Positions 1 to 64,000 of a stretch of 64,000 bases of DNA are shown one piece after another. The position numbers and the translations under genes were made by a program. Source of the DNA: Deuterostichococcus epilithicus (lineage: Eukaryota > Chlorophyta > Trebouxiophyceae > Prasiolales > Stichococcaceae). The first letter of the stretch is position 1. Every line of letters starts with the position of its first letter. The stretch covers positions 682,001-746,000 of the forward strand of contig JAVTLE010000001.1 of NCBI GenBank assembly GCA_033439295.1, in the 5' to 3' direction. The notes under the pieces are model-generated. The model was not told the DNA's origin, did not search any database, and was given only the letters and a program-made list of their open reading frames with translations.

Positions 1-3000
1 GGCATACTTCGGGACCAGGCAAGGGACGCCAGTCCCTTCCGCCCGACTTCAGCTCTGCCGTCATCCAGAGCTGCTTCCTTGTGCTGACAAGACGTATCAG
101 CTTGAGGCTCCAGGTTGAGGCTCGTGGCATTGAAAAGGTCCAATAGACCCCGCAGGACAGACTGTTTAGGGCCCTTAAACCCTGGCGCTCACCCATGTGC
201 AGGCGAGGCGGGTTGGCGCGCGAGTTGCCGAGCCACACGTCAAAGCCGGCGTCATAGGCGGCAAATGCATTGCTCCCTGTGACGCCGTTGCACACCCAGC
301 CCATGGATGTGTCCAGGATGCCGTGCATGAAAAACACGACATCGCGCGCGCCTGCGGAAAAGGTGAGAACACTGGTCACTAGGATTGCTCCTTTTGTGTT
401 TGTTTCGGCAGATGGCATGCCGCCCTGCAGCCCGCGGAGGTGTCCAGGATACCAGATGCATGAATGACACCATGTCACGAGCGCCTGCAAGAAAGGTGCA
501 GGGGTGTTCCTGGATCGTGATCAGAAGGCGACCCTTCCTGCGGCTCATGCATGTGTGATGCTTCCAGGATGCTGGCTGCGTCTTCAAATCCTGTTCATAG
601 CAGATGGTTGTGCGGATTCCTGTGCTGTGAGTGTGCAGCTGGAGCAGGTCCTCGATCAAAAAGAGGTTGCAACCGCCTGTGCATCCAGATTATTCATCTG
701 CCAATGCCAGTGGTAGTGACTCGAGCCACTTTGGAGCAGGTTCCCCTCACCGCGGCGGGGGATGCGCTCCATGTGCATGATGTCGCCGTCGCAGGTGGTC
801 ACATGTGGGGCGCCTTTTGAACCTCCTGCAAAGCCTTTCGGAGGACACTCGTGGGCTGCTGCTTGCTCACCGCGGCGGGGGATGCGCTCCATCTGCATGA
901 TGTAGCCATCGCTGGTGGTCACGATGTGCGGCTCCATGGGGTACCCTGCGGACTGGATGACGTCCTTCGCCGTCCACACGCCGTGCAGCGTCTCGTACGC
1001 GGAGAAGCTGGCCGACCGCCGCAGCCGCTGCGAGCGGTATGTGCGGCTTGCCCCTTCCTCCGGCTCGGCTGTGGGTGCAGAGTTTGTGAAGGAATGTGTG
1101 ACCAAAGTGTTACGATATGCTGCGTATTGGGAGCTTGACATATGGAGCAATGTCAAGGGCCGCAGCTACTGCGAGGGACAGCTCTGGCTGGCGCCCGCCT
1201 CTGGCGCGGCAGCAGCCAAATGATGCAATGTGCAATCACAGCCTGATGACCGCAAAGCGCAAGGCCATCTTGCAAGGCCAGGGCGCCAGCAGCGTGCAGC
1301 AGTCGCTGCTGCGGCGTGAGCAGTGCCTGCAGGCCAGAACCTGCCCCCAGCTCGATGCACGGAGGAGTGACGGAGCCCAGCAGGAGCAGCAGAACATGCA
1401 GGGCATGCTACATCTAGATTTGACTGCGTACCCCCTGGAGCGTGTAAACCCTGCTAGACCCCATCTCCTGCTCGGCTGTTCTGGACGAGGAACAGCACAG
1501 CCTGGTACCAACGACACCTTGGCTCCAGGAGCCAGCAGCGGAGGGCTGGCTGCTCATGGTGGCAAAGGCTGTCGCGCTGCTTTCTGCATGTGGGCTTGCA
1601 GATGTAGTGTGCTGGGAAGTCACCATGCTTCTCGGGACAGAGTACAAGCAGGCCCGGCCGGCACATCGAAGCAAGCAGGCCCCACCTTCTGCGGCACAGC
1701 CAGCCGCGCCGAGGCCGAGCCCGCGCAGCGCCGGCGACTCCCGCGGCGGCGGCACCCGCAGCGTGCGGCGCACCAGCCAGCGCACCGTGTCGAAAGCCGC
1801 CGTGACCGCCAGCTCGCAGCTCAGGCGGAACTCCTCCACGAAGCCGCGCCGGTGGCCGCCCTCCGACACCGCCCAGCCTGCTGGGTGCCATGGATGTCAG
1901 TGCGCGCTCCAGGGAGTCGGGTGGCGGTGCGGGTATGCTGACAAGATGCCAGCCTGCGCAGTGCCGCAGAGTTGCTGAACCAGCGACGGTGCCCAGAATG
2001 CGGAGCTCATCGCTCTGCATGACCCAAGCAAGTTCAGGTTGCAGATTGAGTTCAGTACTGAGGTCAGCTCACGACTTGCCTGAGGGTCGGTCGAAGAGGT
2101 CGCTGCCGCGGCGCCGCAGACCGCCCTCCTGCTGCTGCTTGCCGCTTCCCAGCAGCCACCTGAGGCCCGGCATGCGCTGCAGCCCAGCCGCGACGGCCGC
2201 AATCGGCGAGAGAGCCCACGAAAGCCAGCTCTGGCGTGACTCCGCATCGGCTGACCCGTTGTGGCGCCGCGTGGTGTGCCGCGAGGTGTTGCCTGCGACA
2301 CCAGATGGCCACGGTCTGCTGCCAAGACTCCGGTCTTGAGCTTGCACAAGGTAGAACGATCTGCAACCACCCCAGCTCCCTGCCAACCTGGTGGTTGATG
2401 GCGTCGCAGCATGCACGTGCATGCAGGCGATGCTGCACTCTTGACGCCACCTGCATGCATGCAGCTGCAAAACACAATAGCATCGCAGGATATCGCAGGA
2501 TCGCACGCGACGTTGCTGGCGGCGTGTCTCGCGGAGTGCTGGCGTCGCTCCCGCCGCCGCCCCTGCCGCCGAGGCCACTGTGGCCGCCGCCCGCAGCGGT
2601 GTGCCCGTTGACTTTGCCGTTGGCTGGGCAGTCTCGCGCGATGATGGCATTGAAAGTGCTGGGCCGCTCCTCCCGCCACCACGACTGCCACGCCTGGCTG
2701 CGGCTCAGTCGCGTGCGCAGCGACCTGTGGAGATGGAAGAGTCCATTACGAGCTACCAACTGTCATCAGGCGTGCACGCAGCTCGGGCTATCGGGCTTGT
2801 GACACGCCTCAGCAGAGGTGCGCTCACTTCAACCTGTCGCACAGGAGAACCACGAGCTTTAGCTAACAAGTGCCTCACTTGGAGATGCTGCGCTCACGAG
2901 GCAGCGCCGCCACGACCCATGAGAAGAAGCCGTTGACGAGACGCGTTGCATTGGAGAAAGCCTCCCGGATGATGGACTGCGCAGGCGGCAGAGTTGGAAA

Positions 3001-61477: not shown

Positions 61478-64000
61478 CTAGCTGCGGCCGCCTTGCATTG
61501 GCGGCGTGGCCGGCCGCTGTGACAGGGAGCCGATGTCGACCGCCACATCCGGCAGCGCTCCGTCGCTAGCGCTGCCGCCGCCGCCCGCCCCATCGTCAGG
61601 CGCCGCGCTGATCTCGCCGCCTGCTAGAAAACATTGACGAGTGAGCCGACATTCGCACGCGTCAGGAGGTCGAACATGCGAGTGCCATGGTGCTCTACGC
61701 AGGTATTTCGACTGGCAATTGATCGAGGAAGTAGAAACATCTGCAGTGATGCGGAGACCAAAAATCCGAGCTCGGCGCACAGAGAAGCGCACCGCTTCCG
61801 GCACTGCCGCCGCTGCCGCCGCGGCTGTGGCGTGCAAAGTGGAGGTCCGGAAAGTTGTGTGGCGTTGGCGGCTCTTCTGGCTCTCGGTCCGATGCCATTG
61901 CCGCCGCGCTGCCGCCGCCGCCGCTGCCGCCTCGCCCAGCGCCCTCCGCCATGGGGATGCCGGCGCCTGAGCGGCGCCGGGAGCGGCGCCAGCGCCAGCG
62001 TCGCCACCTGTCGAGTTGCGCAAGTAGATGTTATTTTTAGCAGGCAACAAGATGGCAAGGGCTCGGCAGATCTTCGAGACCAGCTTGAAAGCACTCAACG
62101 CTGCGCCGGAAGAGAGCGAGGGCGCCGCTTGCCCACCGCACGACCACGAGCCAGTACGGGCGGTGACGACCCGGGAACAACACGGCGCATGGCTCAGGCA
62201 AAAATGCTGGCGACTGCGCCAGTCCTGCCACACCACCGTGTCCAGGGGTACACCCGGAGAGGAGGAGAGGTCCCCTGCAGGAATGGCAGCAGGCGGCACC
62301 TGCGGGTGAGGAAGCCTGGTTCCTCTGGGGCGGCGGCGGCCGCCGCCGCCTGTGCCTCCGCCGAGTTGGGGAACGGCTGACCTGCGTGCACAGGCACCCC
62401 GCGGCTTCAATTTTCAGCCATCCAGTTGTGTTCTTCGCTCTTCAAGGTCTGCTCGCTGCGTTGCGCTCCTGTTCAGGCAGCCATCAAGGGCTGCAGACGG
62501 GCAGGGACGCCAGCTGCAGGCTCTGGCAGGCGGCGCGCATGATGCGCACCGCACGATGTGCACCGTTTTCCATGCAGCAGGGTCAGCCATGTCGGTGCAT
62601 GTTGGCGTGTGCGCGCATTGCGCGGCACCTGCGTCCCACTTGCAGATGGGGCACAGCGGCCGCCGCGCCGAGAGCCACTGGTCGATGCATTCCATGTGGA
62701 AGCGGTGCTGGCACGGCAGCACGCGCTGCTTCTCGCCGTCCCTGCGCAGGTACGGAGCACATCAAGTCGGAGGCCTGGACCGCGCTGCTGCAGCCGAGTC
62801 GTGACCGTGTGCGGTGTGCAAGTGTGGAGGGGCAGGCGACTCGAGTGGCTGCCTCGGGCACGGTCAGAGGGGTTCCCAGGAGTGTCAGGCGGCACGGCGC
62901 GGCGAGTGATGCAGCCAGGCATCTGTGCAGGCAGGCAGGCCGCAGCGGCCGCGGGCTTTGGTACGCGGGGGTCTGACAGACAGGCGCTCACGCATAGTCC
63001 TCGATGCACACGGCACAGGTCTTCAGCGTGCCGCCGCCTTTTGGACCGCGCGGGCTGCCGCCGCTGCTGCTCGAGTCGGACGCGGTTTCCTCTACGGCGT
63101 CTGGCTCTGGGCTGGCGCGCCGCGTGCGCCGCGGCGGCGGCTCGTGGATGACCACCGGCAGCGCCCGCAGCTGCGCCGCCGACATGCCACCCTCCTCCTG
63201 CCGAGCGACGTGCTGTTTTGAGTAAAGGGTCCAATTCGTCGGACTCGGTGCAGCAGGCAGTGCCAGTCAGCTGCACCGCCAACATGCCGCCACAACATGC
63301 CGCCCTGCTGCCGCCCATGAGCACAATGAACTCCGTCGAGTGTCTGTTCTGCTGGCAGTTTCGGTGGACTGCAGGCTGGCGGGACCTCTCAGCCGGTGTT
63401 CATTGTGAGGTCTCAGACAGCGTCTTCAGCACCAGAAGCACGGCGCCTGGTGCTGTGGCAGGTCACCCGGGATGGCACCCGCTGCTGCTGACACCCCTGT
63501 GCCGAGACTGGCTCCTCTTGGGCCTGGGCCTCGAAGCTGGACGCTGTCGAGCCGGGCAGCCGACATCATGGGGACACTGGCAGGAGTGGGAGTCGAAAGG
63601 CGGTTGTGGGGGCGCTGCTCGCCGCGCCGCACAGCTGTCGAGGGGCTGCTGAGCACGCGCGGCCTGTGGCAGGAAGCTGGCGAGCAGGACAACTGGCAAG
63701 GGACCGAGGGGCGGCGGCAGGGGTGTGTGAAGGACCTTGAAATGCGCCTAGCGGCGAAGACTGCAAACTCACCTCGCCGCGCAGCAGGGCTTCGGTGAGG
63801 CCGCCGCGGGCCCCGAGCATGCGCAGCCGGTGGCGCCTGATGAAGTAGAAGGTGGCCTGCACATAGATAATGCTATTAATGGATAATGACCAATTGAGGT
63901 AGTGTCGTCGGCCGCCAGCTGCCATCCTGCCCAAGGGGTGGTGATTTGAATGCTCAAAGAATATGAATGCTTTGCGCACCATCATGACGCCGACGGCGAT
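61478..64000 (-). CDS. PA-TM-RING type E3 ubiquitin ligase, 5'-partial
   Basis: Membrane RING-H2 ubiquitin ligase, cut by the right edge. Exons in coding order: 63980 to beyond 64000, 63773-63856, 62992-63197, 62629-62741, 62300-62381, 61793-62007, 61478-61620. Phases agree throughout. The end of a membrane span (IAVGVMMATFYF) is followed by a basic stop-transfer IRRHRLRM, a [10 protein letters not shown] segment typical of the family, a Ser/Pro-rich linker and then the RING-H2: [42 protein letters not shown]. After the RING comes a long disordered Ala/Gly/Arg-rich tail ending QGGRS. The protease-associated lumenal domain and signal peptide would lie to the right. Target unknown; family members act in the secretory and endosomal system. 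Confidence 0.9.

Follow-up and report, generated by a model that had tools for sequence, protein, structure and literature searches.

Introns of the green alga Deuterostichococcus epilithicus were found to carry worn copies of the ends of the exons beside them. In the 64,000-nucleotide (nt) stretch that was analyzed (contig JAVTLE010000001.1, positions 682,001 to 746,000; hereafter the window), about one intron in ten holds a decayed copy, or echo, of the end of the adjoining exon. We consider it probable that short tandem duplications spanning the ends of coding blocks have recurred here and have lengthened existing introns. All counts refer to this one 64-kb window, the gene models are our own predictions made without RNA, and several thresholds and unit sizes were picked post hoc.

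The window is eukaryotic, intron-rich and about 61% GC. A custom gene finder trained on the window itself predicted 145 exons, three of which were judged to be echoes and dropped, leaving a working set of 142 exons and 135 introns (predicted consensus approximately AG|GTGMG for donors and TGCAG|G for acceptors). Exon sequence alone was compared with adjacent introns by Smith-Waterman alignment for 131 of the 135 introns (four longer than 900 nt were excluded), and matches with a corrected score above 9 were counted. Sense matches were obtained in 14 of 262 adjacent pairs versus 13 of 7,534 non-adjacent control pairs; the corresponding antisense counts were 2 of 262 and 13 of 7,534. The excess over non-adjacent exon-intron pairs anticipated in a preliminary description of this DNA is therefore present within the window. 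Eleven of the 16 strong matches, sense and antisense combined, touch the splice site exactly, and the remaining five begin 2-6 nt away from it. Inverted copies were seen at 4897-4941 (the predicted exon it matches is without homology support), at 27761-27815 (inside a transposon-like element) and in an OGDH intron, a number too low for a claim of excess. They might stem from templated repair of breaks, as the preliminary description proposed for one inverted copy.

A scan that makes no use of gene models compared direct repeats 20-400 nt apart with those in three Markov control sequences. The window contained 25 such pairs and the controls 1, 0 and 0. Twenty of the 25 pairs were spaced by at least 60 nt. 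Among these, 17 were exon-intron pairs representing 15 distinct borders (one at a predicted exon without homology support), one linked a coding end and its stop codon to the 3' untranslated region (UTR), one was intron-only and one exon-only. The five closer pairs, some of them low-complexity, comprised three intron-only, one exon-only and one across a predicted border.

Exon-end copies, at intron borders or past the stop codon, occur in all seven genes for which the preliminary description had reported them (lipase, UBA5, PIF1, OGDH, PLC-like, ABCD and PUB). Aligned lengths are mostly about 35-70 nt, and echo boundaries are those set by the alignments. The echoes are as follows.

428-498, minus strand: lipase acceptor-side echo of exon 193-351 (source 297-365); exon part 78% identical, TTGCAG kept.
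746-814, minus strand: lipase donor-side echo of exon 871-1068 (source 866-935); 90% identical over 70 nt, GTGAG kept, intron flank dissimilar.
1159-1210, minus strand: weak lipase acceptor-side echo of exon 871-1068; 37/52 identical.
5792-5829, minus strand: UBA5 acceptor-side echo of exon 5581-5753; 79-80% identical, CGCAG kept, with a second exon-derived piece at 5845-5885.
8087-8131, minus strand: UBA5 donor-side echo of exon 8187-8309; 82% identical over 45 nt.
15267-15395, minus strand: two tandem PIF1 acceptor-side echoes of exon 15116-15205; periods 87 and 91.
31591-31647, minus strand: OGDH acceptor-side echo of exon 31286-31417; AG of the echo lost, inverted partial copy in the same intron.
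31914-31958, minus strand: OGDH donor-side echo of exon 32036-32217; 87% identical over 45 nt.
37717-37786, minus strand: OGDH acceptor-side echo of exon 37471-37639.
38242-38277, minus strand: OGDH echo of exon 38005-38166 minus its first 18 nt; 33/35 identical, intron part similar too (P = 0.0018); under threshold in the gene-model-free scan.
41976-42041, plus strand: PLC-like donor-side echo of exon 41800-41934.
44077-44120, plus strand: PLC-like acceptor-side echo of exon 44280-44483; second short echo near 44181-44204.
51672-51727, minus strand: ABCD acceptor-side echo of exon 51449-51601, 122 nt from its source; 96% identical over 56 nt, intron flank dissimilar.
51796-51851, minus strand: second ABCD echo, 124 nt past the first.
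54046-54081, minus strand: ABCD acceptor-side echo of exon 53900-53993; 83% identical over 36 nt.
60451-60501, plus strand: PUB echo of the final coding stretch and TGA stop of exon 60171-60422, located in the 3' UTR.
63257-63291, minus strand: weak echo in the RING gene, of exon 62992-63197, 6 nt off the border; 30/35 identical.

Three-copy arrays show similar spacing between copies (122/124 in ABCD, 87/91 in PIF1 and about 93/104 in PLC). The copies formerly called almost exact are those beginning at 51672, 31914 and 746. Inside the UBA5 intron echo, positions 5872-5921 hold about four copies of a 13-nt piece (CTGCGTCACGGTG) that is also found in the UBA5 exon, and these appear to be a secondary tandem expansion of the echo. 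At OGDH 31929-32036, the echo donor GAG|GTGCCC outscores the presumed real donor GAG|GTACTG.

Pfam was searched with eight protein pieces drawn from six of the seven predicted gene chains. Matches were obtained to ThiF (UBA5), a partial lipase domain, OGDH E1 and ABCD-type transporter domains, as well as for a RING protein and for one that combines CPP1-like and PUB parts; the presence of a CPP1-like protein suggests the green lineage. A Pif1 2B domain match fell slightly below the Pfam cut-off and the PLC-like protein had no Pfam match; the labels lipase, PIF1 and PLC are taken from the preliminary description and the Pfam matches. Solved relatives align along the UBA5, ABCD and OGDH proteins. 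By our reading of these alignments, the borders at UBA5 8187 and 5753, ABCD 53993, and OGDH 37639 and 38166 therefore directly join conserved protein segments.

The aligned piece was measured in 17 echoes. Its exonic portion spans 17-65 nt, and in 16 echoes it also takes in 1-17 nt of intron; the remaining one begins 18 nt inside the exon. Most echoes retain the CAG or GT. Where the end of the upstream exon has been copied, the echo is found in the donor half of the intron; where the start of the downstream exon has been copied, it is found in the acceptor half. Among 93 introns of at least 200 nt, at a score of at least 18, such same-side echoes were found at the donor end in 5 and at the acceptor end in 12, whereas no downstream-exon copy was found at a donor end (0/93) and no upstream-exon copy at an acceptor end (0/93). 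Direct-orientation echoes in the adjoining intron, on the side of their source, are the arrangement expected of a tandem duplication that spans the border. The reverse would be required if introns were born when an exonic segment with AG|GT was duplicated in tandem (the Rogers model), an origin that the preliminary description had put forward. Direct copies with splice sites do occur, as that model holds, but the absence of its predicted arrangement on both sides contradicts it, and we regard it as extremely improbable. In PUB, the similarity stops with the TGA codon and the echo is located in the 3' UTR, so the relevant edge is the coding edge and not the splice site alone. As splicing is uninvolved there, this echo supports border-spanning duplication and argues against a splicing-based mechanism.

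Exonic identity ranged from 0.71 to 0.96 over the 17 measured echoes, bearing out an earlier impression of graded divergence, and fits repeated duplication events over time. Along the exon part of the echo, identity was flat at about 0.84. In 18 alignments (847 columns), mismatches by codon position 1:2:3 numbered 38:43:56, with 27 gaps; 53 differences were synonymous (46 expected) and 84 non-synonymous. The echoes therefore show no sign of upkeep as coding sequence, and the codon-position counts and gaps disfavor functional alternative exons. The same alignments bear on whether the assembly joined two diverged haplotypes in which exons were conserved and introns lost. Such an artefact would leave similar exons beside dissimilar intron flanks, as seen here, and the window does contain two N bases; yet the differences are not mainly synonymous, the 27 gaps are among them and identities vary from 71 to 96% inside one window, which makes this explanation very improbable.

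Splice-site copies within the echoes were also scored. Ten echo acceptors with NCAG kept had a mean upstream flank score of 0.33, versus 0.92 for real acceptors (p = 0.09) and -0.73 for intronic CAG (p = 0.008); the limitation to these ten sites, with AG-lost sites omitted, favors the echoes. An earlier set of 11 sites, two of them off by one and one AG-lost, gave a mean of 0.04 (p = 0.009 versus real, 0.047 versus background). On sequence grounds, the upstream flanks of the ten NCAG acceptors appear to resemble decaying real acceptors. Four echo donors scored on par with real donors.

Echo-bearing introns have about twice the length of the others. The comparison covered 13 echo introns and 119 others, with three introns that had weak or doubtful matches set aside, and the medians were 502 and 232 nt (p = 0.0001). 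When whole duplicated units were subtracted (unit sizes in multi-copy introns being our choice), the echo-intron median fell to 275 nt (p = 0.13; p = 0.08 against other introns of at most 900 nt only). Subtraction of the echo alone left a median of 413 nt (p = 0.0013; p = 0.0004 against the same restricted set). Removal of the whole unit thus restores ordinary length, so that each event adds the echo and an adjoining stretch, as a tandem duplication would, and insertion of an echo alone into a pre-existing intron is disfavored. Duplicated units account for 2,150 of the 43,968 intron bases. It had been suggested that introns here arise or grow in this way; growth agrees with these lengths, and birth fails on the arrangement of the copies.

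In two cases the tandem origin is clear. The intron part of the unit is duplicated in three of 15 comparisons, namely the two PIF1 echoes (P = 0.0018; 0 of up to 600 controls) and OGDH 38277, and the PIF1 region 15267-15395 appears to be a plain tandem duplication. The remaining echoes presumably arose like these two cases. Short tandem duplications would recur in the genome, with a unit mostly of about 70-140 nt and up to about 220 nt that spans a coding-block end, whether splice site or stop codon. The copy adjoining the rest of the gene would stay in use, while the other would fall into the intron or 3' UTR and decay freely. Such events would do no harm, since the spare copy is either removed by splicing or left untranslated. 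The outcome would be an echo of the exon end that carries its own copy of the splice site, within an intron longer by one unit, and an unchanged protein. The real splice sites presumably still outcompete those of the echoes, and the duplications plausibly derive from fill-in repair of staggered breaks.

The intron flanks weigh against this account. No duplication of the intron part was seen in 12 of the 15 comparisons, and next to the lipase echo (90%) and the ABCD echo (96%) the intron parts lack similarity. A gapped match spans the entire ABCD array including its intron parts (129 of 185 columns identical); those parts tested alone score no better than shuffled sequence. Neutral duplication was simulated with simple mutation models. 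The intron flank fell below the neutral prediction in five of 14 pairs: lipase 746 and both ABCD pairs (0 of 400 simulations each), PLC 44083 (P = 0.007) and OGDH 31914 (P = 0.03). The other nine are individually compatible with neutrality, eight leaning low (P 0.087-0.295) and one at 0.645. At a spacing of at least 60 nt, 15 echo borders stand against one intron-only pair, whereas neutral random duplication simulated on the real gene structure predicts roughly equal shares (P approximately 3e-4). Intron-side similarity runs no further than 17 nt at 14 of 15 borders; the same simulations predict this for about 40% of borders (P approximately 1e-5). Stop-codon, exon-only and closer pairs were left out of these two counts.

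Intron decay twofold faster than that of the echo gave a marginal fit (P = 0.03 and 0.04), and about threefold faster decay fitted both anomalies. Plain neutral duplication fails as a full account unless introns decay about three times faster than the echo. That gap could reflect exon-templated homogenization, splicing at the echo sites, selection acting against paired splice signals, or duplication anchored at coding ends. The systematic bias toward exon-intron borders noted in the preliminary description is explained in part. Exon-end echoes at coding borders are real, and their prominence partly follows from survival and from the slower decay expected when the exon partner of a pair is under selection; the neutral model still under-predicts the bias, so some of it is left over.

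The dissimilar flanks beside 90-96% echoes could instead mean that some process copies coding ends specifically, with the splice site or stop codon as its starting point, and places the copy inside or next to the intron together with unrelated filler; the tandem appearance would then be secondary. The 15 borders against one intron-only pair, and the position of all 16 strong matches within 6 nt of a border with none in exon interiors, are in keeping with this. We nevertheless judge it unlikely, as the PIF1 and OGDH 38277 duplications include intron, the acceptor flanks keep tract quality, the stop-codon case speaks against a splicing-based mechanism and the length accounting requires a whole unit (though echo plus filler would satisfy it too). 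An origin of the filler in the remainder of the exon is disfavored (15 tests, two weak P values of 0.024 and 0.035), as is one elsewhere in the window (no strong match).

Tandem duplication might also have been followed by upkeep, with echoes held exon-like by gene conversion or by use of their splice sites, for example in unproductive splicing. Slower decay of echo than of intron flank, donors that score like real ones and acceptors that keep their tract quality would be accounted for, but the third-position excess is slight and identity is flat along the exon part rather than peaked near the splice site; we hold this to be distinctly improbable. A broader proposition, that duplication is anchored at coding-block edges or that coding-end echoes are actively kept exon-like, so that introns grow preferentially from exon ends, is possible but doubtful. 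If true, such anchored or maintained growth would be a process for which we found no description in any lineage.

Other repeats were observed in the window. Small tandem repeats confined to introns occur too. A 65-nt tandem duplication (76%) at 19299-19429, in a predicted PIF1 intron, is the sole intron-only pair at a spacing of at least 60 nt, and a 36-nt tandem duplication, about 90% identical, lies at 57554-57638 in a predicted intron of the PUB gene. An element is present three times within 4448-4941 (4448-4489 and 4608-4646 direct, 4897-4941 inverted); the predicted exon there, 4452-4493, is without homology support. Positions 27008-28694 form a transposon-like element with 80-nt terminal inverted repeats that are 98% complementary, a long internal hairpin (27795-28177) and a direct repeat pair (27197/28463); gene-finder exons inside it are probably spurious. 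A scan of viral contigs for UBA5 found no relative, and a scan of genome contigs found two loci, L001 and L002. L001 (DYPS01000028.1, filed under a Desulfosporosinus metagenome-assembled genome) encodes a UBA5-like protein at 32% GC, and its contig is a probable eukaryotic contamination.

The causes of intron lengthening are seldom visible in sequence because intronic copies decay past recognition. In this case the neighboring exon provides a stable standard by which each duplication can be dated. An echo-rich genome would provide a clock of intron growth, a measure of short tandem duplication rates and natural tests of splicing choice between duplicated sites.

In tandem exon duplication, exon sequence and a splice site are repeated in tandem. 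The echoes differ in comprising exon ends only, decayed and with frame-breaking gaps, not whole alternative exons, and coding capacity is not kept (38:43:56 and 27 gaps in 18 alignments). Introner elements are similar intron sequences dispersed among genes; within the window, the best match of the inter-copy segments elsewhere had E of about 0.05. The available parts of the Coccomyxa genome paper (PMC3446292) and of an intron review (PMC3488318) do not mention the pattern, and among the matches listed from the open-licence PMC literature there was no report of recurrent decayed exon-end copies that lengthen introns. Intron gain from duplicated exonic sequence with AGGT is described in the portions available of PMC4974935 and PMC2891723. 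Gain of this Rogers type likewise involves partial exon duplication with splice motifs, but the echoes sit at the opposite end of the intron from where that model would place them, and they enlarge introns instead of creating them. Small tandem duplications have been tied to fill-in at break ends in the excerpts available of PMC8355091. These are also adjacent direct copies of tens of bases; they differ in that many of our units exceed 100 nt and most flanks are unrecognizable, and the likeness of mechanism is one of analogy. The available sections of PMC4974935 also describe a potato RdRp gene in which a tandem duplication carries the branch site, tract, 3' splice site and exon start, and a second duplication, of 83 bp, lies within an intron of that gene. 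As in our echoes, a tandem unit with 3' splice signals and the start of an exon stands beside the original. In potato, a new intron and exon were made, whereas here no new intron is predicted, the echoes are decayed and many genes are involved.

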